IMG/VR virus record: IMGVR_UViG_3300009506_000026
Location: 1-63,152 of that record
Reading direction: 5' to 3' (one strand)
Length of the DNA stretch: 63,152 nt
Source: a virus
Each line of letters opens with the position of its first letter. Position 1 is the first letter of the stretch. The notes beneath the pieces are model-generated. The model did not search any database and was not told the DNA's origin. It was given only the letters and a program-made list of their open reading frames with translations. Below are positions 11,187-46,736 of the stretch, in pieces. The position numbers and the translations under genes are program-made.

Positions 11187-11470
11187 CAGTGGATTTAGAT
11201 GGAACTCTATGTTTAGAACCTGAAAACTTTAATCCCTACAATCCAGACTACAGGAATAGAAAACCATTCAAGCAGACCATTCTAAAAATAAATGAACTAT
11301 ATAAAGAAGGATGGTTTGTTATTATTTATACCTCAAGATACAAAGAGGATCTATTCGAAACGAGGGCTTGGTTGAATGAGAACCATGTGAAATATCATCA
11401 CATCGAATTGGGGAAACTCAGGGCAGACCTTTACATCGACCAATTAGCAAAGAGGCCGGAGGAGCTATGA
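11159..11470 (+). CDS. HAD-superfamily hydrolase-like protein, 103 aa
   Basis: The N-terminal motif VAVDLDGTL holds the DxD nucleophile pair of HAD phosphatases. IIYTSRYKEDLFETRAWL matches motif II (Thr/Ser after a strand) with the following helix. The conserved tail (HIELGKLRADLYIDQLA) ends with the motif-IV-like aspartate pair. It is close to the minimal size for the fold and lacks a cap domain. It begins 28 bases inside gat-queC and ends 4 bases inside queC, so it belongs to the cluster. The substrate is unknown; a nucleotide or pterin phosphate is possible. Confidence 0.75.
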   Translation: MSENKSKVVAVDLDGTLCLEPENFNPYNPDYRNRKPFKQTILKINELYKEGWFVIIYTSRYKEDLFETRAWLNENHVKYHHIELGKLRADLYIDQLAKRPEEL

Positions 11471-28481: not shown

Positions 28482-28921
28482 TTTCCAATCTCCTTAGATA
28501 AATGTTCAATCGATTTCTTATTGGAATTCATTGTTTCCATTGCTCCCCTCATGAATTCCTCTGTTTTTCCCATATGCCTGTTAATACTTTTGATCAAATC
28601 AAGATATAGACCCTCTGTTTTTTCTTCCCACTTAACCCTCCTTTCCTCGGCTTTGTCCAATTGAATACACAAAGCCGTTATTTTTTTCTCCACGCTACCC
28701 ATACTGTTCGAAAGTGGACAAGTTGCTCGAAATCCCGCACACCTCTCTTCCGAGACAATCTTTTGTGAGGTTAATTTATCCATGTCCTTCTCCAAACCTT
28801 CGATTTTTTCTTTCTGCGCCCCCTTATCTTCATTTATCCTTTTTGAAAATTGGTACCAAGTGAATATCAGACCGCATGCCGTTAAGAAAAATCCGAATAT
28901 TGTTTCCCATCCAAGTGTCAT
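28478..28921 (-). CDS. Membrane-anchored coiled-coil protein, 147 aa
   Basis: Start chosen at 28921, the ATG overlapping the glycosyltransferase stop, preceded by GGAGAAG. One helix (TIFGFFLTACGLIFTWYQF) near the N-terminus followed by a long coiled coil (EKIEGLEKDMDKLTSQK and ITALCIQLDKAEERRVKWEEK) is the topology of an inner-membrane spanin or a small structural anchor. The next gene encodes a lipoprotein. The pair may be an i-spanin/o-spanin-like set; this is inference from topology only. Confidence 0.6.
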   Translation of the reverse strand: MTLGWETIFGFFLTACGLIFTWYQFSKRINEDKGAQKEKIEGLEKDMDKLTSQKIVSEERCAGFRATCPLSNSMGSVEKKITALCIQLDKAEERRVKWEEKTEGLYLDLIKSINRHMGKTEEFMRGAMETMNSNKKSIEHLSKEIGK

Positions 28922-29859
28922 CCATCTTCTCCTTTCCATTTCCTTGCCCACTCTTGAATAGAGATTTTCTGCTGATTGGCGATATGCTTTCTGTGTGGTT
29001 GGCACTTGGCAATGACATCCTGATAGATGTTCTTTAAAGCTTCGGGTTTCCCCTTCATGTTTTCAGAGAACAATCGACATAAATCCTCTCCTCCATAACA
29101 ATATGTTGCAATTAATTTATTCCTTAAATAATCGTCGTACACATAACAATACCCCCTTTTCTCCCCATGATGAAAAAGAGGCTCCGTAGGGAATATCCAT
29201 TTCTTCATTCCCATCACTGCCAATGAAAAATTCAAAAATTGCTCACCCCCAGAATAAATTCCAAGCTCAGGAGGCCATCCCCCCAATTTATTGTAAACCT
29301 CCCTTGACATCATTACTCCACAACAACTCATACAAGGGACCTCATAGGGAGATTCATTCCTCCTGTACCCCGTAAAAGAATAATCTAAATGTCCTTTACT
29401 TAGATTGTTTACCAACTTGTAAATCAATATATGTGATTCTAAGATTTTGTATGTTAAGGGCAAATGAAGGGTACCATTCAGCTCCCTATGATTCTCTTTA
29501 TAAAATTGGAACATATTAAATAGAGAGTCTCGGGAGATAATACAATGGGCATCACAGAACCAAAGAAAATCCCCCGTGGAATGCTTCACTCCTAAATTCT
29601 TTGACTGCCAATGTGACAGCTTCTTTTCATACTTCAAATATTTCAACCAGGGATTGATCCTACCAGAACAGGCATTCACTGCCTCTCCACTTTTGTCATT
29701 TTCATATCCTAACGATTTTACCTGCTCGCAATAATTATCCACTGCAATGACTTCAAAATCAACTCTGCCCCTTAGTTCCTGTGCAATGTTCTGTAGGGTA
29801 AAAAGGACTTGTGGATACTCATTACAAAAAGGAATTATCACGGACAACTTTTCATTCAT
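28918..29859 (-). CDS. Family 2-type glycosyltransferase resembling polypeptide GalNAc-transferase
   Basis: 313 residues. VIIPFCNEYPQVLFTL is the nucleotide-sugar binding start of a GT-A enzyme. The metal-site motif is DAH (103-105, in WFCDAHC), the DxH form used by ppGalNAc-T enzymes rather than the usual DxD. SCCGVMMSREVYNKLGGWP and the later GGE (204-206, in YSGGEQFLNFSLAVMG) correspond to the ppGalNAc-T acceptor-side segment, followed by a histidine pair (230-231). No ricin-like lectin domain is present. A transferase that adds a first sugar to Ser/Thr is suggested; other GT2 roles remain possible. Confidence 0.7.
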   Translation of the reverse strand: MNEKLSVIIPFCNEYPQVLFTLQNIAQELRGRVDFEVIAVDNYCEQVKSLGYENDKSGEAVNACSGRINPWLKYLKYEKKLSHWQSKNLGVKHSTGDFLWFCDAHCIISRDSLFNMFQFYKENHRELNGTLHLPLTYKILESHILIYKLVNNLSKGHLDYSFTGYRRNESPYEVPCMSCCGVMMSREVYNKLGGWPPELGIYSGGEQFLNFSLAVMGMKKWIFPTEPLFHHGEKRGYCYVYDDYLRNKLIATYCYGGEDLCRLFSENMKGKPEALKNIYQDVIAKCQPHRKHIANQQKISIQEWARKWKGEDG

Positions 29860-29862
29860 CCT

Positions 29863-30750
29863 TCACCTCACCAATGATTGCAAATATTTGTCGAAATCCC
29901 TCGCCGACCTCTCTATATTATATCCTATTCTGAATTTATTCCTCCCTGATTTTCTTACTTTATTTAGGATTGTTCCATTCGATAATATCCAATTTAGTTT
30001 ATCAACAAAATCAAATTGAGTGTATCCAATATAATCCTTACCTTCGATTAAATTAGCATAAGGAAAAAGCTTAGTTTCATCTAAACTTTTGTGGGCAAAC
30101 AGAAGGGCTCCCGTTCTTAAAACATCGGTATACATATCGGAACTGGGACCAAATCCAGGACATCCTATAACCACCTTTGTTCTTCTCAATTCTTGTAAAT
30201 ATTGTTCCCTCTGAATCCTCCCATGCACAATCAAATCATTGGTAAAGTTTTTGAATAGTAATTCTTTAACGCTTTCCCGAATATAGTGTGGGTATTTCGG
30301 TTTCGAAAAACTAAAAATGGAACACCGGAAATTGATTACAATCTCCCTATCAAATTCATCCTCATAGATTTCCTCCCCCGAATTGATTGAAACAATAAAG
30401 GCTACAGGGTAATTATTCAGATAAAACTTAGTTGGAGCGCATTTAATTCGTGGAAATAAATTCCCAAATCGTAGGAATCCATTCTGATTCCCATTATCAT
30501 GAGAATCAAGCAATACTTTGGGTCCTTCAAAATCTAAAAACAGCTTGTCGGTCTTTTCAATAACCCACGGCTTGAATTTGTACCCCATAGTCTCATTAGG
30601 AAATGTATTATATACCAACACATCTCCTAAATTTTCTGTGTATTCTGCTAAAGGATTCCATATGATCGTATGCTTATCCTCTAATAAAGACAGCATTTTT
30701 TGGAAGTATTTTTGATTACTGCCCTTAGAAAAACAATATTGAATTTTCAT
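29863..30750 (-). CDS. Glycosyltransferase, GT-B-like, 295 aa
   Basis: Start at 30750 (ATGA overlap with the previous gene; GAGGGAGGA upstream). The second half has VVIGCPGFGPSSDMYTDVLRTG and LFAHKSLDETKLF, the nucleotide-sugar-binding region of a GT-B enzyme, comparable to exostosin/GT1-like phage proteins. The N-terminal half is less conserved. Substrate unknown. Part of the glycan island; ends 4 bases before the ppGalNAc-T-like gene. Confidence 0.65.
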   Translation of the reverse strand: MKIQYCFSKGSNQKYFQKMLSLLEDKHTIIWNPLAEYTENLGDVLVYNTFPNETMGYKFKPWVIEKTDKLFLDFEGPKVLLDSHDNGNQNGFLRFGNLFPRIKCAPTKFYLNNYPVAFIVSINSGEEIYEDEFDREIVINFRCSIFSFSKPKYPHYIRESVKELLFKNFTNDLIVHGRIQREQYLQELRRTKVVIGCPGFGPSSDMYTDVLRTGALLFAHKSLDETKLFPYANLIEGKDYIGYTQFDFVDKLNWILSNGTILNKVRKSGRNKFRIGYNIERSARDFDKYLQSLVR

Positions 30751-31478
30751 TCCTCCCTCTCCCATTCTAAAAAGAAAGCTTTGCTACCTTTCTTCTTGAA
30801 TTTATAATCTGCCATCCATCTCCTCCCTAAATCTTGAATATAATTGGGTGAGTTCGGTTTTCCAAAGACACCGAACTTCCATTTTAATACCTCATCTAGT
30901 AGGGGGGATCCTTTCTCATGAAATTGTTTCTCGGGATTAAAATCTTCTCTAAGATAGGGGAGACAGTTCCTAACAAAATCATGTCTAATTAAGGAGGGAT
31001 GTCCACAAAATCCTACTCCCCCAATCAGCTCCTTCGGACATTCGAAATAATCCCCATTCCAGGGGAAAAACTTATCCCAATTTTTCATTTTATCCTCTGA
31101 GGATTTGAACTGGGGGAGTCGAAGGGAAGCAAGTTCAGGATATTTCTCCATTAAAAATATCATTTTCTTTAAACTCACAAATACTTTTAATTCCCAATCA
31201 TCCTCCAAATGAAAAATAAATTCTGATTCCGTTTGTTCCCATGTCCATTTAAAGGCGGAGGCAAAATTGGGTTTCTCCGCTATTCTATATTTGCCCATGT
31301 GGGGGTAAAACATTTCAACCACATCGATTACTCTTTGTGGATGACTTGTCCCTATAGGATCTACATTTACAATAGGACGAATAGTTGCTTGCCCAAATAA
31401 ATTATTCTCAAAGGAATATAAAGTTCGATACAGAATCTCCGGGCGACAACAAGCCGTTATGGTTACATCGATGATCAT
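30747..31478 (-). CDS. GT-A type glycosyltransferase, 243 aa
   Basis: Start chosen at the ATG at 31478, three bases before the stop of the neighbouring methyltransferase; an in-frame earlier start would read through it. DVTITACCRPEILYRTL opens the GT2-like fold; FIFHLEDDWEL carries the metal-binding EDD. The C-terminal part (GGVGFCGHPSLIRHDF) is the typical acceptor segment. It is close to the sister enzyme at 35328-36059, which has MEDDF at the same place. Donor and acceptor unknown. Confidence 0.75.
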   Translation of the reverse strand: MIIDVTITACCRPEILYRTLYSFENNLFGQATIRPIVNVDPIGTSHPQRVIDVVEMFYPHMGKYRIAEKPNFASAFKWTWEQTESEFIFHLEDDWELKVFVSLKKMIFLMEKYPELASLRLPQFKSSEDKMKNWDKFFPWNGDYFECPKELIGGVGFCGHPSLIRHDFVRNCLPYLREDFNPEKQFHEKGSPLLDEVLKWKFGVFGKPNSPNYIQDLGRRWMADYKFKKKGSKAFFLEWEREE

Positions 31479-31479
31479 T

Positions 31480-32091
31480 TCAGGAGTACCTCCTTTTCTG
31501 AAAATACAATAGATTGTCATAAAAGGCTTTTATGCCTGGTTTTTTCTTCCATGGTTCCCACGCTCTTCGGATTCTATCTACCGGATTGGAATTGAACTCA
31601 TAAGATTTATAATGGAACTTTTCTATCCAATATTCCGCTGGTTGACAATTTACATGGTAATGTCCCCCTTGTCCTGGGGGAGCGGCGGACAAAAGCAATT
31701 TATCGGAAAAGGCGATCAGATTGTCCAATAAGATATCGGAATACTCTTCCTCAATATGCTCCAATACTTCAAAACAAGTGCAAAGATCGAACCTCCCTGG
31801 GAACATATTTTGCACGTCTATGGGGCTTCTTAAATCCATATAAACAATGAATCTGGTCATGGCAAACTGTGAGGCATGTTTCGATCCTTCAAGACCCCAA
31901 GCAACTATCTCCCATTTCTTCCGAAAATGATCCACCAAATCGCCTACCGCACATCCTACATCCATAAGAGTTGTAGGATTAAACTCTTCCATTATTGCAC
32001 GACAGACGTGCTCCGCTCTCCAGGCAAGACGGGTATGAATTTTGAAAAAGTGTGGTTTGTAAATTTCTTCAAGTGGTTTTCTATTCTCCAT
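31480..32091 (-). CDS. SAM-dependent methyltransferase, 203 aa
   Basis: TLMDVGCAVGDLVDHF gives the SAM-binding loop; EVLEHIEEEYSDILLDN is a motif common to the methyltransferases that act on sugars and small molecules; HYHVNCQPAEYWIEKF comes later. Class I fold, 203 residues. Located among glycosyltransferases, so O-methylation of a glycan is the likely job, but the substrate cannot be read from sequence. Confidence 0.75.
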   Translation of the reverse strand: MENRKPLEEIYKPHFFKIHTRLAWRAEHVCRAIMEEFNPTTLMDVGCAVGDLVDHFRKKWEIVAWGLEGSKHASQFAMTRFIVYMDLRSPIDVQNMFPGRFDLCTCFEVLEHIEEEYSDILLDNLIAFSDKLLLSAAPPGQGGHYHVNCQPAEYWIEKFHYKSYEFNSNPVDRIRRAWEPWKKKPGIKAFYDNLLYFQKRRYS

Positions 32092-33877: not shown

Positions 33878-34615
33878 TTATTCAATGTGGTCAACTAGAC
33901 CCCACTCCTTGGCCTTATCAGTACAGAACCAAGTCGTGTGTTTTTCTAGTTCTCCCCATTTGTCCTTGGACAACTTAGAATTTTTTACCAACTTATCAAT
34001 GTAGCGATCACGCAGCAGTTCCATCAACTCATTTTGTGCCCTAATGTCCGAAGCGGATTCCCGTCCTGGCCATTTCCACAAAGCAACCTCGTGAACCATG
34101 AAAATCGTTCCGGGTGCCGCAAAGCGTTTAGAACAAACAGCGAATACAGGAACCGCCGCACTAGCAATGATTCCAGATGCATGTGCCGTGATATGAAATC
34201 CCTTGCGCTTGGCACGTTCGATCTGGTCGGCCAACGCCAGGCCGGAGAATGCATCTCCCCCAGGTGAATTTATGAACAGGTTTACATCTCTTATTTGTGT
34301 ATTGTATTCCAAGAATACAAGATCATTCCAAAGACGGGTGACATCCGCAACCGACAACCCGGAAAAAATCTTGACAAAGGCTTTATCCTTGGCGATGAAA
34401 GACAGTTGAGACAAAGACCCTTCCGGATTGGGAACCTCCATTGATTTATTAATTTGATCCCCTTTATTCACTTCAACGGAAGAGGGACCTTGTGCCCCCA
34501 CTTTGACAAGAATTTCCTGAGGTTTACTTGCAATTTGTGGCATCGAACAACTAAGAAAAAAAATAGCAAAAATTGACAGGATTAAAGCATTGAGGATACT
34601 CGATTTTGTTTTCAT
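33878..34615 (-). CDS. ClpP/SppA-like serine protease lipoprotein, 245 aa
   Basis: A lipoprotein signal (NALILSIFAIFFLSC, lipobox FLSC, Cys23) precedes a ClpP-fold domain: FINSPGGDAFSGLALADQI (SPGGD at 117-121), ASGIIASAAVPVF with the likely catalytic Ser152, and FMVHEVALW with His175. Phage ClpP-like proteins are normally cytoplasmic head-maturation proteases. This one appears anchored to the envelope, away from head genes, and more like SppA or NfeD-type membrane proteases. Its substrate could be a host membrane protein. Good family match, unusual cell location. Confidence 0.75.
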   Translation of the reverse strand: MKTKSSILNALILSIFAIFFLSCSMPQIASKPQEILVKVGAQGPSSVEVNKGDQINKSMEVPNPEGSLSQLSFIAKDKAFVKIFSGLSVADVTRLWNDLVFLEYNTQIRDVNLFINSPGGDAFSGLALADQIERAKRKGFHITAHASGIIASAAVPVFAVCSKRFAAPGTIFMVHEVALWKWPGRESASDIRAQNELMELLRDRYIDKLVKNSKLSKDKWGELEKHTTWFCTDKAKEWGLVDHIE

Positions 34616-34626
34616 CTTCGGTTTCC

Positions 34627-35331
34627 TTAAAAAATTGTTCTTGGATCTTTACCTCGTTCTCTCCAATAGTTAATCCAAATACCCCTTTCTTTCTCTAATA
34701 CAATCTTATATTGCAGCAAGTTGGATACTTGATTGCGCCCTGATTTATGATAGATAAAACAGTCCTTCAATCTAATCCAACTATAATTGCCCGAGGTTCT
34801 CAAATGATAAGAAATCCAATTGTCACCGAAGAATATTCTAAACTTTCTAACAGGAATCGGGGGAATGCGAAAAGCAACTTCCCTTCGCATTAAAATCACC
34901 CCGGCATTTCCCTTCCCTGTTGGTAGTGCCTCCCCAGATAAATCATCCAAAGAAGCACACTTTGGCAATGGTAGTTCCTCTACTACCGTAGCCGTAACAC
35001 ACCCTGTCGTCAATCCCGCATATCTTACCCCTGTGGCCCTTACCGACTTCTCCAAAAGACATTTGCATAATCGCAAATCATCCGCAAGTATCCCTACAAA
35101 GTCGAATCTCATTCCAAGACAGATGTTCCAAACTGCATTGGTACCAATATTACCCTCGTTGGGCTTGTTCACTCGAAATTGAAAATCGTATTTTATGTCC
35201 CTCCCTTCAAATTTCCCCCCATTATCCACCAATAGAACATAATCAGGTTTCATTGTCTGTTTATTCAAATCGCCAAGGACATTTAAAACTTGAGTAGGTC
35301 TCATGCAGGGGATTACAAGTCCTATACTCAT
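34627..35331 (-). CDS. GT2-like glycosyltransferase, 234 aa
   Basis: SIGLVIPCMRPTQVLNVLGDL and VLLVDNGG are the GT-A donor-binding strands; VGILADDLRLC holds the aspartate pair; NAGVILMRREVAFRIPPI and FGDNWISYHL are the acceptor-side segment. Most similar in layout to the family with a MEDDF or HLEDDW motif in this island. Overlaps the next gene upstream (35328) by 4 bases. Substrate unknown. Confidence 0.75.
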   Translation of the reverse strand: MSIGLVIPCMRPTQVLNVLGDLNKQTMKPDYVLLVDNGGKFEGRDIKYDFQFRVNKPNEGNIGTNAVWNICLGMRFDFVGILADDLRLCKCLLEKSVRATGVRYAGLTTGCVTATVVEELPLPKCASLDDLSGEALPTGKGNAGVILMRREVAFRIPPIPVRKFRIFFGDNWISYHLRTSGNYSWIRLKDCFIYHKSGRNQVSNLLQYKIVLEKERGIWINYWRERGKDPRTIF

Positions 35332-36059
35332 AGCTTAAAATCCTCGATTCTCTGTGAAAGTTTATTATGTCGGAACAAATTTGCATGGATTTGTGCCATG
35401 CGAAATACCTTTAATCTGTCTCTCCAAATTGTCTCCGCTATTTTTTCGTTGTAAACATAGTGCTTCCTTGAAGGAAGCATCATTTGTAATACCTCACTTT
35501 TAACAATATGGGGATTAAATACATAGGTATTTTTTACCTCTTCAAAGATCGTTTGTGAGGTATCCAATAAACCCTTTTGATCCCTTTTATAGTCCCAATA
35601 GAAGGGAACTTCTGGCTTAACCAGGTCCTTATGCTTCCCATAAATAACAGTATCATAATTAAAATATTTGCATTCCTTCCATGATCGAAGTCGTATGCAT
35701 CCAAAATCTTTGAACACCTCAAAGAACTTAAAAATAAAATTAAGATAATAGGTCAAAGGCTCGCAACAAATAAAATCATCCTCCATATACATACAAAAAG
35801 GGGTGTCTTCTTTCAGACAGGCCCTCATTACTTGGACGTGTCCCCAGCCCCCTCCTCTATTTTCCTCAAACGAAATTACCTCTTTGAATTGTCCCTCATA
35901 TTTTGCTACCACATCCAATGTATCTTTTTCCACCGACTGAATACAAATTTTAAAGATAAAAGTGTCCAGACAATCTCTATTCAAATGGAAGAACGAGTCC
36001 AAAGTCTTATCCAATATTTGTGGTCGTTTGCACGTAAGAAAACCTACCGCAATTTTCAT
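35328..36059 (-). CDS. GT2-like glycosyltransferase, 243 aa
   Basis: KIAVGFLTCKRPQILDKTL starts the fold; FCMYMEDDFICCEPL contains the metal-site DD. KEVISFEENRGGGWGHVQVMRAC is the typical loop between donor and acceptor parts. The C-terminal third is basic and helical. Coupled by 4-base overlaps to both neighbours. Similar in size and motif to 30747-31478, suggesting a duplicated pair of sugar transferases. Confidence 0.75.
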   Translation of the reverse strand: MKIAVGFLTCKRPQILDKTLDSFFHLNRDCLDTFIFKICIQSVEKDTLDVVAKYEGQFKEVISFEENRGGGWGHVQVMRACLKEDTPFCMYMEDDFICCEPLTYYLNFIFKFFEVFKDFGCIRLRSWKECKYFNYDTVIYGKHKDLVKPEVPFYWDYKRDQKGLLDTSQTIFEEVKNTYVFNPHIVKSEVLQMMLPSRKHYVYNEKIAETIWRDRLKVFRMAQIHANLFRHNKLSQRIEDFKL

Positions 36060-36997
36060 AAAAAATTCCTATGCCTTAATGGAGTGAATCTTTTGTCCCT
36101 AACCTTCTCATACACTTTAGCATAATTTATATATCGACAGGATCCACAGATTCTAAGATCGGGTTTAAATTGATTCCTTCTTGCCCAAATATCTTCCAAG
36201 CTTTCCTCGTTCACATCCCCTATAATAAAATCAGGATTTCCTCTATGAACACAACAATAATAAACCTTGCCATTCGCTCCCACCTGACCTATTAGACCTG
36301 CGATTTGACAAGGGAGATTGGAGTCCAATTCTACCGAATATCTATCAACCTTAAATAACCCCTCATCTGAAATGTTCCTCATTGTACTTTCAATTCCAGA
36401 GATTTTCCAAGCAGGTTTTATTTGTGCATAAGATACTCCCAATGATTCCGCTAGTTCTCTAAACCCCTCAACCTCCTGTTTATTTTTCTCCGTGACTACC
36501 ATACTTAACCCTACATCTGTTTTCCCTACACACATTCTTACATTCTCTATAACCTCATCGAAAACATTGTTTCCTTTTATGGCTTCGTATGTTTTAGGAG
36601 TAGCCGCATCCAAACTAATCCTAATAAATTGAAACTTGTCAAGCACCCCCTCCACCCGATCCAAAAATATTCCGTTTGTTATTAACCCAATTTCTAAACC
36701 TAAATCGTAAGCCGCCCAAATCATCTTCTCCGCAAAAGGATTTGTTAATGGTTCTCCCCCACCCGACAATGTAATGGATTTCGCTTCCATTTGGTACACT
36801 TCAAAAATGACATCACTAAATGTAGACCATGTCATTACCGAACGATCCTTGTTTAGATAATTCTTGTAATGACAAAAATAGCACCTATTCTGACAAGTAT
36901 TAGCAATGTCAATTTCACAGGTTACAAAGGGCTGTCTTTTCCCTTCTATTATCCTATCTGTTTCCTTTAAAAAATTTAGAATCTTGAAATCCATCAT
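36056..36997 (-). CDS. Radical SAM/SPASM-domain enzyme, 313 aa
   Basis: CQNRCYFC (CxxxCxxC) near residue 35 coordinates the 4Fe-4S cluster; SGGGEPLTNP is the SAM-binding GGE region. The C-terminal third has further cysteines (PCQIAG, YYCCVHRG, ICGSCRYI), the SPASM-type auxiliary-cluster region. Such enzymes modify peptides or sugars. In a glycan island it could create an unusual sugar or modify a protein. It overlaps the acyltransferase gene by 44 bases. Confidence 0.78.
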   Translation of the reverse strand: MMDFKILNFLKETDRIIEGKRQPFVTCEIDIANTCQNRCYFCHYKNYLNKDRSVMTWSTFSDVIFEVYQMEAKSITLSGGGEPLTNPFAEKMIWAAYDLGLEIGLITNGIFLDRVEGVLDKFQFIRISLDAATPKTYEAIKGNNVFDEVIENVRMCVGKTDVGLSMVVTEKNKQEVEGFRELAESLGVSYAQIKPAWKISGIESTMRNISDEGLFKVDRYSVELDSNLPCQIAGLIGQVGANGKVYYCCVHRGNPDFIIGDVNEESLEDIWARRNQFKPDLRICGSCRYINYAKVYEKVRDKRFTPLRHRNFL

Positions 36998-37769
36998 CTT
37001 CCCACTCCACGTAATTTTTTCCTTTATGTGAATAATATCGAAATCTAATACCTGCTCTCCTCAACAAGTTTCTAAATCTTTCGGTGTCTCCCGTCACAGG
37101 TCCCACTATTTTACGGTCATACACGCTGAAAAAAGTATCCCCTATTCTAAAAATAGGACCATCTTCCTTAAATTCAAAATCCTTTTTGAATGTTCTCCTT
37201 AAATGAGTAACTAATAAATTAAAATTGACCTCCTCTTTGGGATAAGCATTTTCTTTTTTTATCTCAACTGGGATTCCCGCGGCAAAACAGAAATCAGGTA
37301 AATCTTTATTTACTAAGGACATTGCGGCTACCATCACTCCCTTTCCAATAGTGACCCCAGGATTCACCCAAGCATGTGGCAGCCAGGAAAAATGTCGTAT
37401 CTCTACAGGAGCAAATTGAAAGGGGTATCCCCAATCATAGGGAGCATAAGCACCATGTGTCCAAATATTGGACTGATGTCCTATTCCCACCTCATGCCAT
37501 ATTTTCACTCTACAAGCGGTATTGATATGAGCAAATCGTCCTAAATGCAAAAAGTCCCCTGCGATCAATTCCGATGTTTCCTCGAAACAACTACCCCCTC
37601 CTATCCAACTATATTCATGAATCCAAGCCTCTCTACCGATTATTACCGATCTACCCTCGATCTTAGCATAATCGTTAATCACACTACCATCACCAATTTC
37701 AAAATGTTCGGTGACATTGATCGTGGCTTTCGGACTTATTCTAACATTTTCTCCCTGTTGCCATCTCAT
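36954..37769 (-). CDS. Left-handed beta-helix acyltransferase-like protein, 271 aa
   Basis: Start at the ATG at 37769 (GAGGTGGCTATT upstream). Repeated hexapeptides appear throughout the first 180 residues (ATINVTEHFEIGDGSVI; KIEGRSVIIGREAWI; VNPGVTIGKGVMVAAMSLV), the LbH fold of sugar O- and N-acetyltransferases, followed by a separate C-terminal domain of about 90 residues. The catalytic His may be in IWHEVGIGHQSN. Likely acetylates a sugar in the island's glycan. Confidence 0.78.
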   Translation of the reverse strand: MRWQQGENVRISPKATINVTEHFEIGDGSVINDYAKIEGRSVIIGREAWIHEYSWIGGGSCFEETSELIAGDFLHLGRFAHINTACRVKIWHEVGIGHQSNIWTHGAYAPYDWGYPFQFAPVEIRHFSWLPHAWVNPGVTIGKGVMVAAMSLVNKDLPDFCFAAGIPVEIKKENAYPKEEVNFNLLVTHLRRTFKKDFEFKEDGPIFRIGDTFFSVYDRKIVGPVTGDTERFRNLLRRAGIRFRYYSHKGKNYVEWEDDGFQDSKFFKGNR

Positions 37770-38392
37770 AATAGCCACCTCTTTACTTCAAAGGCTTCGG
37801 CGTATTTACATCCACATTCTGATCCTCTGACCCGAGCTTTTGCTTCTATCGCTTCTATGGATCTTTGATGTGGAAACTCCCTCATCTCACACACAATTTT
37901 TTCCAAAGTGAGTAATTTTTTGTTCATAAATTTTTCAATGTTCACATATAGATTAGGAGCAAATGTTGTGGAACCCCCTAAATATTCACAACATAAAAGA
38001 CCTACCGGTCTTCCATAACACCTTGCTTGCACCAATGCACTCTTAAATACAATCCTATGATCCTCATTTATATCATGCTCAGAATGAGTAATAATTAAAT
38101 CAAATTTCAGCCCCAACGATTCAAATCTTTTATTTAATTCCAACTGACCATATTTATCAAATTCCATTGTAGGGATATTCAAAAAGAAACAATTACTCAA
38201 TGGAACACCTAAACACGTGGCAATCTTTTCCGATTCCTGTCTATAACTTACTCCTGGTCTTCCATGAACAACAATCCCATTATTTGCCCAAACAATAAAT
38301 ACTTGATGATTCTCCGAAATAAATTTGGCTATAGTTCCCCCACAATACAAAATCTCATCATCCACATGAGCCACATATACCACGATGTTCAT
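37766..38392 (-). CDS. PIG-L/LmbE-family deacetylase, 208 aa
   Basis: Start at 38392 (GGTGGA upstream). The metal-binding motif AHVDDE (8-13) and the second motif HSEHDINEDHR are hallmarks of the PIG-L family, which removes N-acetyl groups from GlcNAc-type sugars or their conjugates. In a glycan island it would give a free amine for further substitution, possibly by the neighbouring acyltransferase. Short overlaps with both neighbours. Confidence 0.88.
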   Translation of the reverse strand: MNIVVYVAHVDDEILYCGGTIAKFISENHQVFIVWANNGIVVHGRPGVSYRQESEKIATCLGVPLSNCFFLNIPTMEFDKYGQLELNKRFESLGLKFDLIITHSEHDINEDHRIVFKSALVQARCYGRPVGLLCCEYLGGSTTFAPNLYVNIEKFMNKKLLTLEKIVCEMREFPHQRSIEAIEAKARVRGSECGCKYAEAFEVKRWLL

Positions 38393-38970
38393 TCCACCAA
38401 ACCTTTTCCAATATCGTAATACATTACACAAAACCTACCAAGCTTATCCAATGTGTATTGCTTTATATTCAAATGTGAATAATTATAGTTGCTCATAATC
38501 GTTCCTATCCTACGAGCAATCACCCCTTTGTGAAAATCATCCACAACCAAATAAGTTCCCGTATTAACAAATTGGGATAAAACTGTTTCCAAATACTTAT
38601 GTCTATGCCCAGTAACATCGATATCATAAAAGATCAGATCAAAGGCTTTATTGGCTCCTTTTATCTCTGGCCAAATAAAAAAACCTTCGCTTCCCAATTC
38701 ATGCTTCTTAGAGAAAGCTTTACTTTTCTGTAGCCATCCTTTATTGGCATCCACAGACCAAATATCTGTATCCAAATTATTCCTCTTTTTATACAATCGA
38801 AAGGCACAACTGCTTATTCCACTACCAAGATCCAAGATACTCTCCGCTTGTTTTCTCCTGAACATTCTCATCAAAAATAAACAGCATTCTAAGGATGCCG
38901 CCATTCCTGATATCGTACTTGTATATTCTTCATGAATCGCCGTAAACTCTTCCTTCAATTGTTCATCCAT
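38389..38970 (-). CDS. SAM-dependent methyltransferase-like protein, 193 aa
   Basis: SILDLGSGISSCAFRL is the SAM loop and IWSVDANKGWLQ the acidic second strand; IFYDIDVTGHRHKYLE and YLVVDDFHKG fit the Methyltransf_24-type family. Target likely a sugar hydroxyl or a small metabolite. It lies between a GT-B enzyme and the PIG-L deacetylase with overlaps at both ends. Confidence 0.72.
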   Translation of the reverse strand: MDEQLKEEFTAIHEEYTSTISGMAASLECCLFLMRMFRRKQAESILDLGSGISSCAFRLYKKRNNLDTDIWSVDANKGWLQKSKAFSKKHELGSEGFFIWPEIKGANKAFDLIFYDIDVTGHRHKYLETVLSQFVNTGTYLVVDDFHKGVIARRIGTIMSNYNYSHLNIKQYTLDKLGRFCVMYYDIGKGLVE

Positions 38971-40096
38971 TGATCATCTCATATTCTTCTAGTAAAGATT
39001 GAATTCCTTGTGATGGGTCACTCGCCGTCAACATGGTGAAAAGTTTTTTCATTTGGGGCAAAACGACCTGCTCTATCCCGAACGATCTTTCATAATACAT
39101 ATACACACTCGTTTTGTCTGAGAAGTCTCGGGATCCAAGTTCTCCTTTAATCACACGGGCTATTTGTCTAAAGTCATCACTGTTATTTATGACTGTGCAA
39201 ACATCGGGGTTGGAAGATATTAAAGGATGGTGTCTATGTGGGAAGGACATAATCACTCGGGTTCCACATCGGAGAGCCTCAAGAGGTCCTCTATCATTTT
39301 GTCCATGTCCCCCTAAAAATAACGCCAACTTGGATTTATTCAAAATCTCACAAACTTCATTTCGGGGAACCATCCCTGTCATTCTAATTCTCAAATCATG
39401 ATCCAAAATATCCTGTAGGATTCCATTTGTAAATGTACCATGAGTTTTTCTGCCCGGGAGAATACAATTAAGCTTTTCCCCATATAACTTTTGGTACTCA
39501 ATCGCCACCTTCACCCCTCTCCATTGAGCCTTCTTGTCATGAATATGTGAACACCCAATACACACATCATAAATCTTAGGGGTCTTGATTGGACGAAAAA
39601 TGTAAGGATTCACTGGCTTTCTAAAATCTAAAAACAATCTGTTGTTCCTTCGGTCATACCAGTCCTTGCCACTTAAATCATCAAACACAATATCCCAAAA
39701 TTTCCACCTTTGTCTTCCCGTATTTGCAGCATATAAAAGTAACCAATGCTTTCCCTTCAATTCATTCAACAGATTAAACCAACTACGAAATCCCCCTCTT
39801 GCCCAAATAATATCTCCCTCCTTCAAAAACTCTCTCAGAACTTCAAAATGAGGGATCACATAACACTGGTGTCCTTCCAACGATGTTTGTCCTGTATTTC
39901 TTCCTGACTCCGCAAAGATCAAAACATCGTCAACGATTGCCTCCTCCTTCATCCTTTTTATTATTTGGAAGTATCCTTCAGTACCAAGACCGGAGTTCTC
40001 TCTTAGATACTCACAATGGGATTTCTTTCGTCTATCCCAAGGTTGATTCACCTCTCCACAACTGCCCCCCATATATATAAAAATCAACCTATTCAT
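38963..40096 (-). CDS. GT-B glycosyltransferase, 377 aa
   Basis: Start at 40096, the ATG that overlaps the sulfotransferase stop. The C-terminal Rossmann domain shows IYDVCIGCSHIH, LNCILPGRK, then a donor-binding helix region (KLALFLGGHGQNDRGPLEALRCGTRVI), with the GPLEAL corresponding to the GT4 EX7E region. Probably transfers from a nucleotide sugar. N-terminal domain diverged. Substrate unknown. Confidence 0.72.
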   Translation of the reverse strand: MNRLIFIYMGGSCGEVNQPWDRRKKSHCEYLRENSGLGTEGYFQIIKRMKEEAIVDDVLIFAESGRNTGQTSLEGHQCYVIPHFEVLREFLKEGDIIWARGGFRSWFNLLNELKGKHWLLLYAANTGRQRWKFWDIVFDDLSGKDWYDRRNNRLFLDFRKPVNPYIFRPIKTPKIYDVCIGCSHIHDKKAQWRGVKVAIEYQKLYGEKLNCILPGRKTHGTFTNGILQDILDHDLRIRMTGMVPRNEVCEILNKSKLALFLGGHGQNDRGPLEALRCGTRVIMSFPHRHHPLISSNPDVCTVINNSDDFRQIARVIKGELGSRDFSDKTSVYMYYERSFGIEQVVLPQMKKLFTMLTASDPSQGIQSLLEEYEMING

Positions 40097-40839
40097 TTCA
40101 TCCACGTATTTTTTATTACTCTTTCTTCTAATTTTCTGTAATCCAACAAAGGTAAAGGCGCTTTTATTCTATTTTTATGATTATAGATTCTACCACAAAT
40201 GAACCGATGGTCTCTTAGTTTTATTTTCTCTGGGTCTCCCAACTCTAAAAAATTAGCAATCCTGTTAAAATTCCCTTTATCCTTTATCATATTCGCTGAA
40301 ATGTAGATCGCCTTCCCACCCCCTCTCTCCACCTCTCTTTTATATTTTCTCATACGATGCTCAATCTCCAAAGTATACCAATAACAAAGCTCGTAAGGAG
40401 TTCTTCTTTTCCAATCACCCAGTCTTGTTACATTCTCAGGGTGAGAAGGCGATATCGCAAATATATTTCCCCTTTCAGTCGTCCCTGGAATTAGATCCAA
40501 TGATAAAAAACTTTTTGCTATCTTCCTTCGATTTCTCTTGATCAATAATAAATCAGGCACATAACCTAAATCCAATAAGGGGTAGAAAAAATACTTACAA
40601 AATCCATGACTCATTTCCATGTAAATTTCTCTCCCCTCTACCAAATTCTCAATGGAGGGAAGTTTCTCTGTCCTTAAAAAGGTTCTGAAATCATCAAAAG
40701 TTTTGTTTTCATGAGAGAAGTGGATAAAAGAGGGGAAGGGCTCGTGGTAGGAAGCGACTTTTCGAAAAAGACCAAAAAGAATAGACAAGAATCTTGTCCC
40801 TGTTCTCCCAGCCGTTACTGTAAAGATCATTCTTTTCAC
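40093..40839 (-). CDS. Sulfotransferase-like protein, 248 aa (GTG start)
   Basis: FTVTAGRTGTRFLSILF is the 5'-phosphosulfate-binding loop (the sulfotransferase version of a P-loop, 7-23); HEPFPS and LLIKRNRRKIAKSFLS (3'-phosphate-binding region, Arg/Ser) follow. Enzymes of this fold transfer sulfate from PAPS to sugars, proteins or lipids. In this setting sulfation of a glycan is likely. Follows a 90-base gap with a long hairpin. Start at GTG 40839 (AAAGGAAAG upstream); an ATG nine bases later is possible. Confidence 0.75.
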   Translation of the reverse strand: MKRMIFTVTAGRTGTRFLSILFGLFRKVASYHEPFPSFIHFSHENKTFDDFRTFLRTEKLPSIENLVEGREIYMEMSHGFCKYFFYPLLDLGYVPDLLLIKRNRRKIAKSFLSLDLIPGTTERGNIFAISPSHPENVTRLGDWKRRTPYELCYWYTLEIEHRMRKYKREVERGGGKAIYISANMIKDKGNFNRIANFLELGDPEKIKLRDHRFICGRIYNHKNRIKAPLPLLDYRKLEERVIKNTWMK

Positions 40840-40929: not shown

Positions 40930-42195
40930 TTACCAAGCCTGTATTGCCTCCTGCATTACTGGAGCATAATATCTAAAATAAAGTGAATCCATGTTATAGG
41001 TCTGTCGGCAAAATGTCTTTACCTTTAACACCTCACTTTGTCTCAGTCTCGCCACAATTGTATGAGCAATGGCGGCCCAATATTGCTCATTAGGGGGATT
41101 AAAATTTCTATGGAAACTACCAAACTCAAAATACAGAGCCTCGTGATTTGTAATCTCCACTTGGTTATCTAAGGATCTATTTAAAACTAACAAGGTGCCC
41201 GAGGCGGCGGCTTCGGGCACCACTAAACCAAAACTCTCCTCTCTTGTTGGAAAAATGAAAAGATTACTTAATAGAAATAGTTGGGATATCATGTGTTTGG
41301 GAATGCCTACATCATATTTGGGTGACTCAAATTCAGAAGTAAATATAATCTCCTTTCCCACAAACAATCCCTTTTCCTTTGCAATTTGCTTGTACCTATC
41401 AACATCTTCCTTCTGTTGTTTCCCTGTTGCCCATTGACAAGCTACTACTAAACAAATCGAAAAACCCATTGCCTTTAACTCACTAAAGATGGTGATTACT
41501 TCGGCAACCCTTTTAGCCTCAAGTCTATCAACGGAAGCAGGGAGCAATTGCACAATATCCGCTTGCATTACGGAAGGGTTTTGATCTATGAATCGCAGGG
41601 TATCTTCGTGGAAATCAAAGAAGGTTCTTGGATCTTTTATGTGTGGGATTATTCTCACATTATCATCCATCCCCCTGTACTGCTCCGCCACTCTTGTTCT
41701 ATAGGAAGCAGTAGGGAATACCAACTTATGATTTTTTCCATATGTCTGGATGTTCCACCAATCTCTCGCCACGGAGGGCATACTGTGAATCCAATGTAAC
41801 CACCGGGTATCAGGCATTCTTCTACCCACTTCAATGCAGGCTAAACCATAAGGCAAATTCCACCCAGTGAACACAAAATCATGTGTAAAGATGATTTTAA
41901 TCCCCGTTGATTCCAGTTCTTTGCAAAGAGCATTTGCAGTAGTATTAACAAGGAGCTTATGCTCGGCGGACATTTTGTATTGACTTTTGTAATCAACAAG
42001 GTGAGAGAAGGGAATTGATTTGTGCAAGGTTACTTCGGCAGGGAAAGTTTCTCCATTGTACCCCGAATTTACGAATAAGTGAACCTCATGCCCATGCCTG
42101 TTGAGCATCATTACTTGATCCTTCACGATGCCTGTTAGACTGTAGCCGGGCTGAAATTCCATGAACGTGGTTAGAATCGCAACTTTTTCTTTCAT
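40930..42195 (-). CDS. GT4-type glycosyltransferase, 421 aa
   Basis: I chose the ATG at 42195 behind AAGGAGAAAAAA; the ATG at 42210 lacks a clear site. EVHLFVNSGYNGE is the N-terminal Rossmann region; VVACQWATGK, FIFPTREESFGLVVPEAAASG (EX7E) and the later DNQVEITNHEALYFEF give the GT4 C-terminal domain. It is the first gene of the island after the predicted promoter (42266-42238). Sugar unknown. Confidence 0.85.
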   Translation of the reverse strand: MKEKVAILTTFMEFQPGYSLTGIVKDQVMMLNRHGHEVHLFVNSGYNGETFPAEVTLHKSIPFSHLVDYKSQYKMSAEHKLLVNTTANALCKELESTGIKIIFTHDFVFTGWNLPYGLACIEVGRRMPDTRWLHWIHSMPSVARDWWNIQTYGKNHKLVFPTASYRTRVAEQYRGMDDNVRIIPHIKDPRTFFDFHEDTLRFIDQNPSVMQADIVQLLPASVDRLEAKRVAEVITIFSELKAMGFSICLVVACQWATGKQQKEDVDRYKQIAKEKGLFVGKEIIFTSEFESPKYDVGIPKHMISQLFLLSNLFIFPTREESFGLVVPEAAASGTLLVLNRSLDNQVEITNHEALYFEFGSFHRNFNPPNEQYWAAIAHTIVARLRQSEVLKVKTFCRQTYNMDSLYFRYYAPVMQEAIQAW

Positions 42196-42237
42196 TTTTT
42201 TCTCCTTCATTATGATTGAATTCCTAAGTTTATTTTC

Positions 42238-42269: not shown

Positions 42270-45200
42270 TTATGAATAGCCCTGACATTCATACATTGAT
42301 ATTTCGGCGCACCCCGACTGGTAACTTCCTCCTCCCTGAGCTTCCGTGATTCTCCATCTATAATATTCATAATTTATCCCATTCGGAAATATCCAAGACT
42401 TTTCCTCTCCTTGTGCCCACGATAGTCCAGATTGACTATAGACGGTTGATTCCTCTCCTGAAAAATCTCCTGTACTTGAACCCTCCAGTACCCAAGACTT
42501 GGGAGCATACCCTATCGGTAATGGAGCCCATCTAATTACCAACCGCTCAATGTTCTTTGAGGCTGTTAAATGAAGTTTAATCCATGCATCTGCCGTTCCT
42601 ATGGTATCATAGGACATCCAAGCAGTTGTCTGATTGTCATCCGTCGCATTATCATCAATATAGGTGAGATATTCACTGCTGCTGCTAATTGTACTGCCTG
42701 TGGCACAATCCGATCCCCAGTCCGTACAATCCTCTGGTCCATAAAGAGTTGTTGTAGTAGTTGAGGAACAGGTGCTAGTACTCATCGTGGAACTTGTAGT
42801 TGAAAGTGTGGAACTTGTCGAGCTTGTAGTGGACAAAGTGCTGGTGGTTGAAGCTGTGGAACTGGAAGAACTGGTCGAACTCTGTGTAGAAGTGGTAGAC
42901 AAAGTGGAACTGCTAGAGCTTGTTGTAGACAACGTGCTTGTAGTTGAGGCTGTGGAACTGCTAGTAGTCGAACTTGAAGTGGTAGTTGTGGAACTTGTCG
43001 TTGTTGAAGTTGAACTAGTGGTGGACAAAGTGCTGGTTGTCGAAATTGTGGAACTGCTGGAGCTTGTTGTGGAGGCTGTGGAACTGCTGGTCGTAGTTGT
43101 TGAAGTAGTGGAACTTTGTGTTATAGATGTTGTGGTAGTCGAACTGCTTGAACAGGTCGTGGTGGTAGATGTAGTAGTGCTTGTGGTTGTAGAAGGATAC
43201 GTTGTTTCTGTTGTGGTAGTCGAACTGCTTGAACAGGTGGTTGTCGTACTGGAACTGGTCGTTGATAGGGTGCTTGTCGTGGACAAAGTGCTTGTGGTTG
43301 AAATCGTACTTGTGGTGGTAGATGTTGTGGATGTTGTCGTTGCCCCCGTTTCAGTCCAAGACTGATTATATAATTCAATATTAAATAGATACATTGGGTT
43401 GTGGTTACCGAGAGGTGTTGCAAATTCCAAATATTGCAAATCTCCTCTATTAAGCCAATTAAGATCAATCGTCCAATATTGAGTCCATTGAGGTAAAAGT
43501 ACATTGTAAATTACAGGACCAGAAGTGGTTCCTATCGTTAACCACGTATCCGCAGTAGGTGTTTCTAAGGGGTAAAAGGTTAATCTTATCTTTGCAGGTC
43601 TTAAATTATTTGCCCAATTTCCCTTTACCGACAACTTTGATACATGCATATCCCCCAAATGTGCATCTGGGTTATCATTAAATTCCCAATAATCATAATC
43701 ACCGTGCCAGGAAACCGATATGGGAGTTTCGGGTCCAGCTTGAACAGGCTCCCAACGATGATTGTCAAAAAATGAGGACCAGGGTCCTGCATACTCCACG
43801 TGTAGTTCCGCAGCATTGGTGGAATCGTAATTCTCATCCCCTGTCGCTGAATCTACCGTCATTCCCCCCCATTCATCCTCATTTAAAACTACATCTCTAT
43901 CCGATTTTACAATAACAATTAAATTTCCCCCATATCCTGGTCTGTTTATCACCTCCTGCAAAGATTCTGAAAAATCCACAGACCAAAACCATTCATGTTC
44001 ATTGGCACTTCGTATAAAAGACCATTTGGTACTAGCTGAGGTCAAAGGAAGAGCGTTATACTCCGCAATAGAAGTAGGGGCGACAGGATCATCCGCATCC
44101 ACCAAAAAGATTTCGGCAAAGGCGGAGCCCCCCTCAAGAACTGAGGAATAAGAAAAAGCACTTAATTTTAATCTTGAAGAAATAATAAGACTTTCCGGTT
44201 CAATATCTACATTTATGAATCTAAAAAAGGCATCATAATTATGAACAGTACCAGAATCGTTATCAGGACCAAAAATGATATTCCCAGTGGAGTTAAATGT
44301 TAGTTCTGTAATATGTCCATCATTTGCATTTCCTCTAACTTCCCAATAATCACTTGTCGAAGCGATTATCTTCAAAGAGGAGGAAGTCTGCCGACACTCT
44401 ATTTTTGCCCCCCTCGTACTTTGCACTATTCGGGTAACTCTGAACTTAGTGTACTCACTTATACATTGATTCAGTAGATCACGATCAAAGATTTCAAAAG
44501 GGGTAAACTCAAATTGGATAATATCCCCTTTATCAATTTCTGATAAATAGTCCCCACCATCAAATTCACAAATCAATCGAGGTTGTCTGTTTTCTCCAAG
44601 TACCCACCCTGCAAAAGATAGGGCCTGTGATTCCCCAACAACAAAATCTAAATCTATTGGTTCCCCTGTTAATTGACCATAAATATCTTGACTATCTGCA
44701 TCCTCTACCTCTATTACACTTTTTGACTTCTCAAGTTCTGATTTATTTCTTTCGGACCACTCTTTGGCATAGCTAATTAAAAATCGATTTCTAAGTTCGG
44801 AACGCTTGGTAAAACGCGATCTTGCGGTATTAAGAAAAATTCTCCCCTCATTGATCGTCTTATCGGAAGTGGTATTATCTGGGATATACTTTAGATGGTG
44901 CTCACCTAAACTATGGAACCAAGCACTCTTAGCTTGAAAAGCTATATTGGATACTAATTCCAGGACGTTCGGCGCTTCCGTTATAACTACTCCAAGAACA
45001 ATCGCTTCCGCCACGTAATTGGTGTGTGCGGTATTAAAATCAGCATTAAAATTATCTACCGACTCTCCACAATAATTAATCAAAAAATGTTGAATAATTT
45101 TCCCTGGGTATTCCAATAACTGACCCGATATTCCATACCCCCTACTTTGAATATCTGCTGATACTCTACCCCCTAATACTGTGTCCGCCACACTGTTTCC

Positions 45201-46736
45201 CGTTATATCCACAGTGCCAACTTTTGTGACATTCGAGGTTGTTTCTAATGGCTCAGTCTTAAATTCTATCCAAGCCAAAGAAACAAATACATATCCTAAG
45301 GAATTGCTCCCCCCTCTTAATAGGTCTCCTGTTAAATTATTTATTTTATCCCATGTGTCACACAAAGAATTAACATTATACCAATTACTTTTGAAGGTTC
45401 CCGTTGTACTTTCTTGAATATATCTATTAGCCCATGTAAATTTCATGTTGCAGTTGTTATCTATAAATGGAATATGCATACAAAGACGAAATTGAAGGGG
45501 TGTCTTGTCAGGAATCTCATACATTGCCTTACTGAGTTCCACTTCACACCCCGCATTTTTTATTTCCCCCCAATCCGTCAAGTTACCATTAACCAAATTC
45601 TCAGGAAAATTTACCCATCCCCCAGAACTGATTTTTTCAGCTATTTCAAATTCCCAAACTTCATATAAATCCTCGCCATGAGCATGACCCCCATCATTTA
45701 CATCAATGGAATCATCTACCTCTATATTAAACTGCTTTTCTATAGAGGGTTTCGCCGTAAATTTAATTACAGCCATCCCGGGGTAATCCTCATGTTCATC
45801 CCCCGTTTGCCCCGTATAAGCCACAAAGTTAGTAATCTGTCGTACCCATTCACCCGTGGTTCGATTCTCAATATAAATGGCATCAAACGATTTTATTGGG
45901 TGGTCCATAGCGAAAAGATACTCAGTTTGTATTTCCGCTATAGTCGTGCCTGCTTTATGTTCCGCCTGTGTAGTTTCCGCATACCCTCGAGAGCACCCCA
46001 TAAAAGAATTTCCTGAAATGTAGCTATAACTGATTTGTTCAAAATCAAGTTGTATAACTCCCCCTCCAACTGGAAACTTTGAGGTGTCCGTCGATTCAAA
46101 AAATGAAACACTGTCGCTAATATCTGCCACCAATGAGGTTAATGATCCCGAATCTACCCCCAAAAAAGGCATCTTTAAAATTCTACCATAAGCGATGGGG
46201 AATAACTTACCAACATCGTCAGGGTCCGCGCCGGGGTAAGACTCGGAAGTACAAAAGTTTCCCTGAAATTTATTTATTAGGGACACCTCGTTGGAAGTCA
46301 AATAGACCCTAACTCTGTCCACTCCTTCATTCTCAACATCCTCTATTTCTCCCTTAAAAATTAAATCCTTATCCTCAGCAGCCGAAGCCCCCTCAAAAAT
46401 TCGATAAATACTAACGGAGGAATACATAGGAGGAGAGGAACCAAATAACAAAGAAAAATTTCCCAAAGTTCCAATACTTACATTATTTGCCACCACAAAA
46501 CTTGCATTGCCTGGATCAGGGGTGCTTCCATCAAATCTAATGTCTCCTGAATCAAGGTCTCCCCATTCGAGTACTAAAGGTTCATAAATTTGTGAATTAA
46601 AAATAAAAGTAGAAGTACCAAACAATCTGTCACATAGATAATAGGTAGAGGAATCAAGAGTGATTTCGACAAGCCAAATAGGCTCCGTATGAGGAGAATC
46701 GATCTTTGTTTGATTAAAGGAACTTAGAGTTTTCAT
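42270..46736 (-). CDS. Tail-tip/receptor-binding protein with mucin-like linker and C-terminal discoidin-like domain, 1488 aa
   Basis: Residues 1-1130: long beta-rich structural region typical of tail-tip proteins, opening with SFNQTKIDSPHTEPIWLVEI. Residues about 1133-1330 are almost all Ser/Thr with a few Leu, Ile, Cys and Ala (42747-43340 in DNA). The C-terminal domain (about 1331-1488) has CTDWGSDCATG and then a jelly-roll resembling F5/8 type C (TAWMSYDTIGTADAWIKLHL; YYRWRITEA), a carbohydrate-binding fold. Cysteines near its ends may pair. It follows the distal tail gene by a 4-base overlap. A receptor-binding function is likely; the Ser/Thr linker is a candidate for O-glycosylation. 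Confidence 0.72.
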   Translation of the reverse strand: MKTLSSFNQTKIDSPHTEPIWLVEITLDSSTYYLCDRLFGTSTFIFNSQIYEPLVLEWGDLDSGDIRFDGSTPDPGNASFVVANNVSIGTLGNFSLLFGSSPPMYSSVSIYRIFEGASAAEDKDLIFKGEIEDVENEGVDRVRVYLTSNEVSLINKFQGNFCTSESYPGADPDDVGKLFPIAYGRILKMPFLGVDSGSLTSLVADISDSVSFFESTDTSKFPVGGGVIQLDFEQISYSYISGNSFMGCSRGYAETTQAEHKAGTTIAEIQTEYLFAMDHPIKSFDAIYIENRTTGEWVRQITNFVAYTGQTGDEHEDYPGMAVIKFTAKPSIEKQFNIEVDDSIDVNDGGHAHGEDLYEVWEFEIAEKISSGGWVNFPENLVNGNLTDWGEIKNAGCEVELSKAMYEIPDKTPLQFRLCMHIPFIDNNCNMKFTWANRYIQESTTGTFKSNWYNVNSLCDTWDKINNLTGDLLRGGSNSLGYVFVSLAWIEFKTEPLETTSNVTKVGTVDITGNSVADTVLGGRVSADIQSRGYGISGQLLEYPGKIIQHFLINYCGESVDNFNADFNTAHTNYVAEAIVLGVVITEAPNVLELVSNIAFQAKSAWFHSLGEHHLKYIPDNTTSDKTINEGRIFLNTARSRFTKRSELRNRFLISYAKEWSERNKSELEKSKSVIEVEDADSQDIYGQLTGEPIDLDFVVGESQALSFAGWVLGENRQPRLICEFDGGDYLSEIDKGDIIQFEFTPFEIFDRDLLNQCISEYTKFRVTRIVQSTRGAKIECRQTSSSLKIIASTSDYWEVRGNANDGHITELTFNSTGNIIFGPDNDSGTVHNYDAFFRFINVDIEPESLIISSRLKLSAFSYSSVLEGGSAFAEIFLVDADDPVAPTSIAEYNALPLTSASTKWSFIRSANEHEWFWSVDFSESLQEVINRPGYGGNLIVIVKSDRDVVLNEDEWGGMTVDSATGDENYDSTNAAELHVEYAGPWSSFFDNHRWEPVQAGPETPISVSWHGDYDYWEFNDNPDAHLGDMHVSKLSVKGNWANNLRPAKIRLTFYPLETPTADTWLTIGTTSGPVIYNVLLPQWTQYWTIDLNWLNRGDLQYLEFATPLGNHNPMYLFNIELYNQSWTETGATTTSTTSTTTSTISTTSTLSTTSTLSTTSSSTTTTCSSSSTTTTETTYPSTTTSTTTSTTTTCSSSSTTTTSITQSSTTSTTTTSSSTASTTSSSSSTISTTSTLSTTSSTSTTTSSTTTTSSSTTSSSTASTTSTLSTTSSSSSTLSTTSTQSSTSSSSSTASTTSTLSTTSSTSSTLSTTSSTMSTSTCSSTTTTTLYGPEDCTDWGSDCATGSTISSSSEYLTYIDDNATDDNQTTAWMSYDTIGTADAWIKLHLTASKNIERLVIRWAPLPIGYAPKSWVLEGSSTGDFSGEESTVYSQSGLSWAQGEEKSWIFPNGINYEYYRWRITEAQGGGSYQSGCAEISMYECQGYS
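42747..43340 (-). repeat. Ser/Thr-rich low-complexity tract, tail-tip protein
   Basis: About 198 codons of Ser and Thr with a few Cys, Leu, Ile, Glu, Pro and Ala. Synonymous codons (ACA, ACC, ACG, ACT, TCC, AGC, AGT and others) are mixed, so the DNA is a degenerate repeat rather than a simple trinucleotide run. This argues that amino-acid composition is under selection. The segment TTTTCSSSSTTTT occurs twice. Confidence 0.9.

Follow-up and report, generated by a model that had tools for sequence, protein, structure and literature searches.

A ppGalNAc-T-like glycosyltransferase of a tailed phage, encoded in a gene cassette next to candidate Ser/Thr-rich acceptor proteins

A 63,152-base IMG/VR record (the window, meaning here the whole stretch of DNA that was analysed) encodes a 313-aa enzyme which, as judged from its modelled fold and active-site layout, is ppGalNAc-T-like, and which lies at the end of a conserved gene cassette. 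From its computed fold, residue conservation, cassette synteny, and co-occurrence with Ser/Thr tracts, we infer that it is probably a phage polypeptide Ser/Thr glycosyltransferase, belonging to a module through which the phage O-glycosylates mucin-like virion proteins of its own. The window encodes an HK97-type major head protein, a head maturation protease, a tail assembly chaperone, and a tape measure protein, and its genome is therefore that of a tailed phage. The ORF is a real gene, open on the minus strand only, with many stops in the plus-strand reading:

28918..29859, minus strand: ppGalNAc-T-like GT-A glycosyltransferase, 313 aa, with DAH at 103–105, GGE at 204–206, H230, R235, and Y237 (from motifs, Pfam, profile, AlphaFold2 fold, and family alignment)

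An AlphaFold2 model of the enzyme, built on a six-member alignment, had a pLDDT of 90.7 and a pTM of 0.91. The best 50 Foldseek matches of this model were all ppGalNAc-Ts (best E 1.3e-16), and VIA-align aligned it end to end with the catalytic domains of 29 ppGalNAc-T entries (Z 24.6–28.4 over 275–289 residues), followed by WrtF (Z 20.0), heparosan and chondroitin synthases (about 19), and SpsA (17.9). A neighbouring GT-A enzyme (30747–31520) taken through the same pipeline as a control first matched B4GALNT1 and TarS, with B4GALNT1 best at Z 16.2 and a ppGalNAc-T in 37th place at Z 14.2; because this neighbour did not match a ppGalNAc-T first, the fold pipeline discriminates. A preliminary description of this DNA had likened the enzyme to ppGalNAc-Ts, and comparison with their structures agrees with it, the nearest fold being that of a ppGalNAc-T, well apart from other GT-A enzymes.

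The same description had read DAH at 103–105 in place of DxD, which was borne out as the sole D-x-H of a protein in which D-x-D is absent, and had placed a GGE before a histidine pair, an order that was likewise found (GGE 204–206, then HH 230–231, then KRGY); a second GGE at 256 is not conserved. Across 49 homologues (37–66% identity to the window protein, plus the Tunturi_4 phage enzyme at 21%), D103, H105, G204, E206, H230, R235, and Y237 are invariant in the family alignment (each 49/49), and the DAH, GGE, and His motifs are for this reason beyond chance. In GT27 structures, the Mn ion is held by the Asp and His of DxH plus a later His (PMC11074326), and both DxH and this third metal ligand are matched by D103, H105, and H230 (49/49), the equivalence of H230 coming from profile alignments. 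Within the Gal/GalNAc-T motif WGGEN, GGE is kept (G204 and E206 in 49/49) and Asn is present in 35/49, while the Trp is absent (Y202, G203), its position being occupied by Tyr or Gly in the phage family. The REGLxRA(R) segment that precedes DxH is defining for GT27. It is not conserved here, the aligned stretch reading LSHWxAK in 48/49 family members, and since neither the WGGEN Trp nor this segment is conserved, the donor or acceptor may differ from those of ppGalNAc-Ts. A ricin-type lectin domain (PF00652) was not matched among the 49 members, and the 313-aa protein stops where the catalytic domain stops (model residues 1–313 aligned to T2 134–439). The enzyme is not filed in GT27, a family that transfers GalNAc from UDP-GalNAc to Ser/Thr by a retaining mechanism, because it has no lectin domain, the REGLxRA(R) segment is not conserved, and its activity is predicted only.

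Searches of Pfam, PHROGs, and NCBIfam gave the enzyme generic GT2 or weak labels only. The Pfam match was PF00535 (GT2; E 3.2e-13, 50.4 bits against a cut-off of 23.3) and nothing more specific; this broad model, matched by 49/49 family members at E ≤ 0.1, does not separate GT2 from GT27. A PDB search with the single sequence returned a ppGalNAc-T first (T10, E 2.3e-4), and with the 49-member profile the first nine matches were all ppGalNAc-Ts (best E 2.9e-14, T10), in alignments that span DxH and in several cases also GGE and the His-Arg-Tyr segment. Of the other GT2 chains in the PDB, most are matched by the profile over the N-terminal half only. In the comparison of GT27 with GT2, the family profile thus favours ppGalNAc-Ts and not polysaccharide- or lipid-type GT2s, as the earlier assignment implied. 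In the reverse direction, a profile from four ppGalNAc-T sequences ranked family members at the top among 7309 ORFs, but a few bacterial GT2s scored in the family's range, and sequence alone separates the family from ordinary GT2 less well than the fold does. A GT2 of a Sumerlaeia MAG (L069 9962–10885) reached 33 bits with this four-sequence profile and is possibly a cellular relative.

Relatives were not found by single-sequence scans and were reached only via scans with growing alignments, which recovered about 55 in IMG/VR phage contigs; a genome scan added one, in a deltaproteobacterial MAG contig. The earlier statement that such enzymes are rare outside eukaryotes can thus be kept only with a limit, as the family is present in these phage contigs. 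Minor tail proteins of Microbacterium phages gave a weak match (E 0.2).

Presumed acceptors had been placed in the same genome, and two near-pure Ser/Thr tract proteins are indeed encoded there:

42270..46736, minus strand: tail-region protein, 1488 aa, encoded immediately upstream of the cassette and bearing a Ser/Thr tract; no library match
42738..43364, minus strand: its Ser/Thr tract, residues 1125–1333, 81 Ser and 98 Thr of 209, candidate acceptor
55634..57823, minus strand: structural-block protein, 729 aa, mostly Ser/Thr, candidate acceptor
55742..57466, minus strand: its Ser/Thr tract, residues 120–694, 263 Ser and 249 Thr of 575

A tail role of the first protein is suggested by its place beside the tape measure gene. 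Ser and Thr make up 11.3% of the other window proteins, a composition at which 32 such residues of 40 have a binomial chance near 1e-23 per stretch. Every one of the six Ser codons, AGY and TCN alike, and of the four Thr codons occurs in both tracts, and because all ten codons are used, the tracts are not a simple DNA-repeat artefact and selection at the protein level is indicated. Proline is almost missing from the tracts, in contrast to the PTS repeats of mucins.

The cassette is a minus-strand gene run that leads from the tail block to position 28 kb and begins 59 bp after the Ser/Thr tail-region protein. It encodes a GT4, a P-loop protein, a GT-B, methyltransferases, a PIG-L deacetylase, a hexapeptide acyltransferase, a radical SAM protein, and several GT-As, which are listed here from the first gene downstream:

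40930..42210, minus strand: GT4-family glycosyltransferase, first cassette gene, most conserved partner
40093..40839, minus strand: P-loop protein, sulfotransferase-like by eye, accessory (inspection; no library or Pfam match)
38963..40105, minus strand: core GT-B-like glycosyltransferase, in 30/51 loci (weak PDB profile match to WbaZ-1)
38389..38970, minus strand: methyltransferase, accessory
37766..38431, minus strand: PIG-L family de-N-acetylase (PF02585, E 6e-17)
36954..37778, minus strand: left-handed beta-helix (hexapeptide) acyltransferase-like protein
36056..36997, minus strand: radical SAM and SPASM protein, variable accessory, in 5 family loci
35328..36059, minus strand: probable GT-A, accessory gene (weak PF01755, E 0.013)
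34627..35331, minus strand: GT2-like accessory protein, in 14 family loci (glycosyltransferase call by inspection, no Pfam match)
31480..32091, minus strand: core SAM methyltransferase (PF13489)
30747..31520, minus strand: core GT-A glycosyltransferase with an EDDW motif, fold nearest B4GALNT1, TarS, and POMGnT1
29863..30765, minus strand: accessory protein, 300 aa, GT-B-like by eye, no confident Pfam match, with a homologue in 2 family loci

A ClpP-like protease with an apparent lipoprotein signal peptide is also encoded inside the cassette (33878–34615, minus strand). The core recurs across 51 family loci (GT4 in 41, GT-B in 30, methyltransferase in 32, GT-A in 33), usually in the order GT4, GT-B, methyltransferase, GT-A, with the ppGalNAc-T-like enzyme last, and GT4 is found in 28/29 larger contigs with the enzyme vs 0/28 lineage relatives without it. 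The linkage of glycosyltransferase genes to a structural-protein gene is conserved in relatives as well, a Ser/Thr ORF lying 19–566 bp upstream of GT4 in ten family loci. One contig (G027; L057 6404–10948) carries three copies of the ppGalNAc-T-like enzyme close together, with Ser/Thr tracts downstream.

In the mechanism that we favour, the enzyme would act as a cytosolic, metal-dependent GT-A that binds a nucleotide sugar via a metal held by D103, H105, and H230, and would place the first sugar on Ser/Thr of the tracts in the 42270–46736 and 55634–57823 proteins. The GT4, GT-B, GT-A, methyltransferase, PIG-L deacetylase, and acyltransferase would then elongate and decorate the glycan, either ahead of virion assembly or in the course of it, so that tail or virion proteins would come to carry a mucin-like coat. 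The presence of a PIG-L deacetylase is a hint that some of the sugars in this glycan are N-acetylated.

The tracts may also be glycosylated by the same module with the roles of two enzymes exchanged, so that GT4 (40930–42210) forms the first sugar–protein bond and the ppGalNAc-T-like enzyme extends the chain. Initiation by GtfA/GtfB on serine-rich repeats is established, and GtfA, a GT-B enzyme that initiates on streptococcal serine-rich adhesins, is a precedent for such a role; the GT4 gene is, moreover, the first in the cassette, adjoins the Ser/Thr ORF, and is the best-conserved partner. We nevertheless consider initiation by GT4 unlikely, because the fold most specific for polypeptide acceptors is that of the ppGalNAc-T-like enzyme, and in one contig, G026, the enzyme and Ser/Thr tracts occur together with GT4 absent. 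The GT4 profile also matched no PDB entry at E ≤ 0.01, although this search is weak evidence, and the profile of the GT-A neighbour matched none at E ≤ 0.1.

For the co-occurrence counts, tracts were defined by at least 60% Ser+Thr over 40 residues with at least 20% Thr, the Thr minimum having been added because an early random-contig control yielded Ser-rich ORFs with little Thr. By this definition, 27 of 50 family loci contain a tract, as against none of 93 random viral stretches whose summed length was similar; at 75% Ser+Thr, one tract-bearing stretch was seen among 133 random stretches. Larger contigs were scored by a DNA pattern of ten consecutive ACN/TCN codons, which occurs in 25/30 of those with the enzyme, these contigs being fragments in which absences are soft; three more contigs, G007, G009, and G018, have tracts that are seen at the protein level. 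As a lineage control, the comparison was restricted to 40 contigs that are 35 kb or longer and, like the window, carry an SbcD-like marker, and the codon pattern was found in 9/11 fragmentary contigs with the enzyme vs 1/29 without it (p=1.9e-6), or in 9/12 vs 1/28 (p=7e-6) when a contig cut within the enzyme gene is counted. Among closer relatives only, the corresponding values are 5/7 and 0/9 (p=0.005). The conserved synteny and this lineage-matched co-occurrence strengthen the idea of a polypeptide acceptor.

These counts also bear on the reading that the cassette serves to alter polysaccharide on the host surface, for receptor masking or serotype conversion, and has no connection with the tracts, which would then be flexible linkers. 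Host-surface modification is the role of many phage GT2 and GT4 genes, the best PHROG match of the enzyme is to GtrB-like O-antigen conversion, albeit weakly (E 0.0045), and Thr-rich tracts are widespread without glycosyltransferases; yet within one lineage the tracts follow the enzyme, the cassette comes after tail genes, and neither a flippase nor a Gtr-type partner turned up among those cassette genes that were scanned, all of which makes a host-surface role decidedly improbable.

The association between tract and enzyme is not universal. Tunturi_4, an isolated Tunturiibacter phage, encodes a 21%-identical homologue, gp2 (L002 1567–2565), between its terminase and portal genes, and has neither a Ser/Thr tract nor a cassette, so that distant homologues need not act on tracts and our glycosylation claim covers the cassette-borne clade. 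Tunturi_4 gp2 is a tractable experimental relative, whose acceptor is perhaps a different one. In the other direction, 52 loci picked solely for a Thr-rich tract gave two weak matches to the enzyme family. Viral contigs without the enzyme family often carry Thr-rich tracts, TTTTTSTTTTTVAP-like repeats among them (L209–L328). A general expectation that phage Thr-rich tracts lie beside glycosyltransferases was rejected, as Pfam matches to glycosyltransferases near tracts were little above random. Ser/Thr tracts thus need no such enzyme, being common in phages without it and with glycosyltransferases hardly enriched around them.

Two QueC-family proteins are encoded on the plus strand at 9594–12177, one of them fused to a glutamine amidotransferase domain, and suggest 7-deazaguanine modification of DNA or tRNA. 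Their presence could be taken to mean that the glycosyltransferases act on modified bases of the phage DNA, but QueC homologues occur in only one other family contig among the sequences searched, the cassette adjoins the structural block, and the nearest folds are those of protein and glycan glycosyltransferases and not of base glycosyltransferases, which leaves glycosylation of DNA bases highly improbable.

Among known systems, the ppGalNAc-Ts (GT27; GalNAc-T2, -T10, -T12, and Toxoplasma GalNAc-T3) are alike in the GT-A domain from end to end (Z up to 28.4), and the phage enzyme keeps their D-x-H, GGE(N), and the following His...Arg-x-Tyr segment. It differs from them in its low identity (14–19%), in having no lectin domain and no membrane anchor that was seen, in lacking the WGGEN Trp and REGLxRA(R), and in being encoded in phages of bacteria. 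GT60-type polypeptide alpha-GlcNAc-transferases (PF11397) are so annotated in uncultured Caudovirales phages, and some viral structure matches are annotated "Glycosyltransferase, GlcNAc"; unlike GT60, however, none of the 49 family members matches PF11397 at E ≤ 0.1. The glycosyltransferases of mycobacteriophage virions are reportedly phage-encoded. Glycosylation of mycobacteriophage capsids has been described (Freeman et al., 2023, cited in PMC12691614) and has phage proteins as its targets, as is predicted for the present phages; these are set apart from that system, as far as the part of it considered here goes, by a ppGalNAc-T-like enzyme and by near-pure Ser/Thr tracts that run to hundreds of residues. 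In Streptococcus mutans, PgfS of the Pgf system acts on the Thr-rich region of Cnm, and its GT-A gene likewise lies directly beside the Thr-rich acceptor gene (PMC5856776); unlike the phage enzyme, PgfS is membrane-bound with multi-TM partners, and its NCBIfam model, for which the cut-off is 500, gives the window protein just 13 bits. The GtfA/GtfB system of serine-rich-repeat adhesins is similar in its cytosolic O-glycosylation of Ser-rich repeats and its adjacent glycosyltransferase cluster, features that are predicted on the phage side, and differs in that its initiator is a GT-B heteromer whereas the phage candidate is a ppGalNAc-T-like GT-A.

Phage virion glycosylation and a bacterial GT-A beside a Thr-rich acceptor are thus already known, while the open-access literature, to which the search was confined (subscription papers and preprints excluded), yielded no paper on a phage ppGalNAc-T-like enzyme and no example of one encoded in a conserved phage cassette beside putative mucin-like virion proteins. 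To our knowledge, direct initiation of Ser/Thr O-glycosylation of the ppGalNAc-T type is regarded as eukaryotic. It is possible, though a little short of an even call, that phages of bacteria encode a complete mucin-type O-glycosylation system of their own, comprising a soluble GT27-like initiator, extending and decorating enzymes, and dedicated mucin-like virion proteins with Ser/Thr residues in the hundreds. If true, this would be the counterpart, in viruses of prokaryotes, of the mucin pathway of eukaryotes, or possibly a relative ancestral to it. Confirmation would mean that proteins in the prokaryotic world are O-glycosylated by a further, new route. It would also suggest a function, open to test, for many unexplained phage glycosyltransferase clusters and for part of the Ser/Thr tracts of viral metagenomes, inform ideas on how the GT27 fold arose, and make available a simple cytosolic enzyme with which mucin-like glycoproteins could be produced in bacteria.

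Elsewhere in the window, a uracil-DNA-glycosylase-superfamily domain is fused to a family A DNA polymerase with a 3'-5' exonuclease domain (15045–17648, plus strand), and homologues are found near the glycosyltransferase in 16 family loci.
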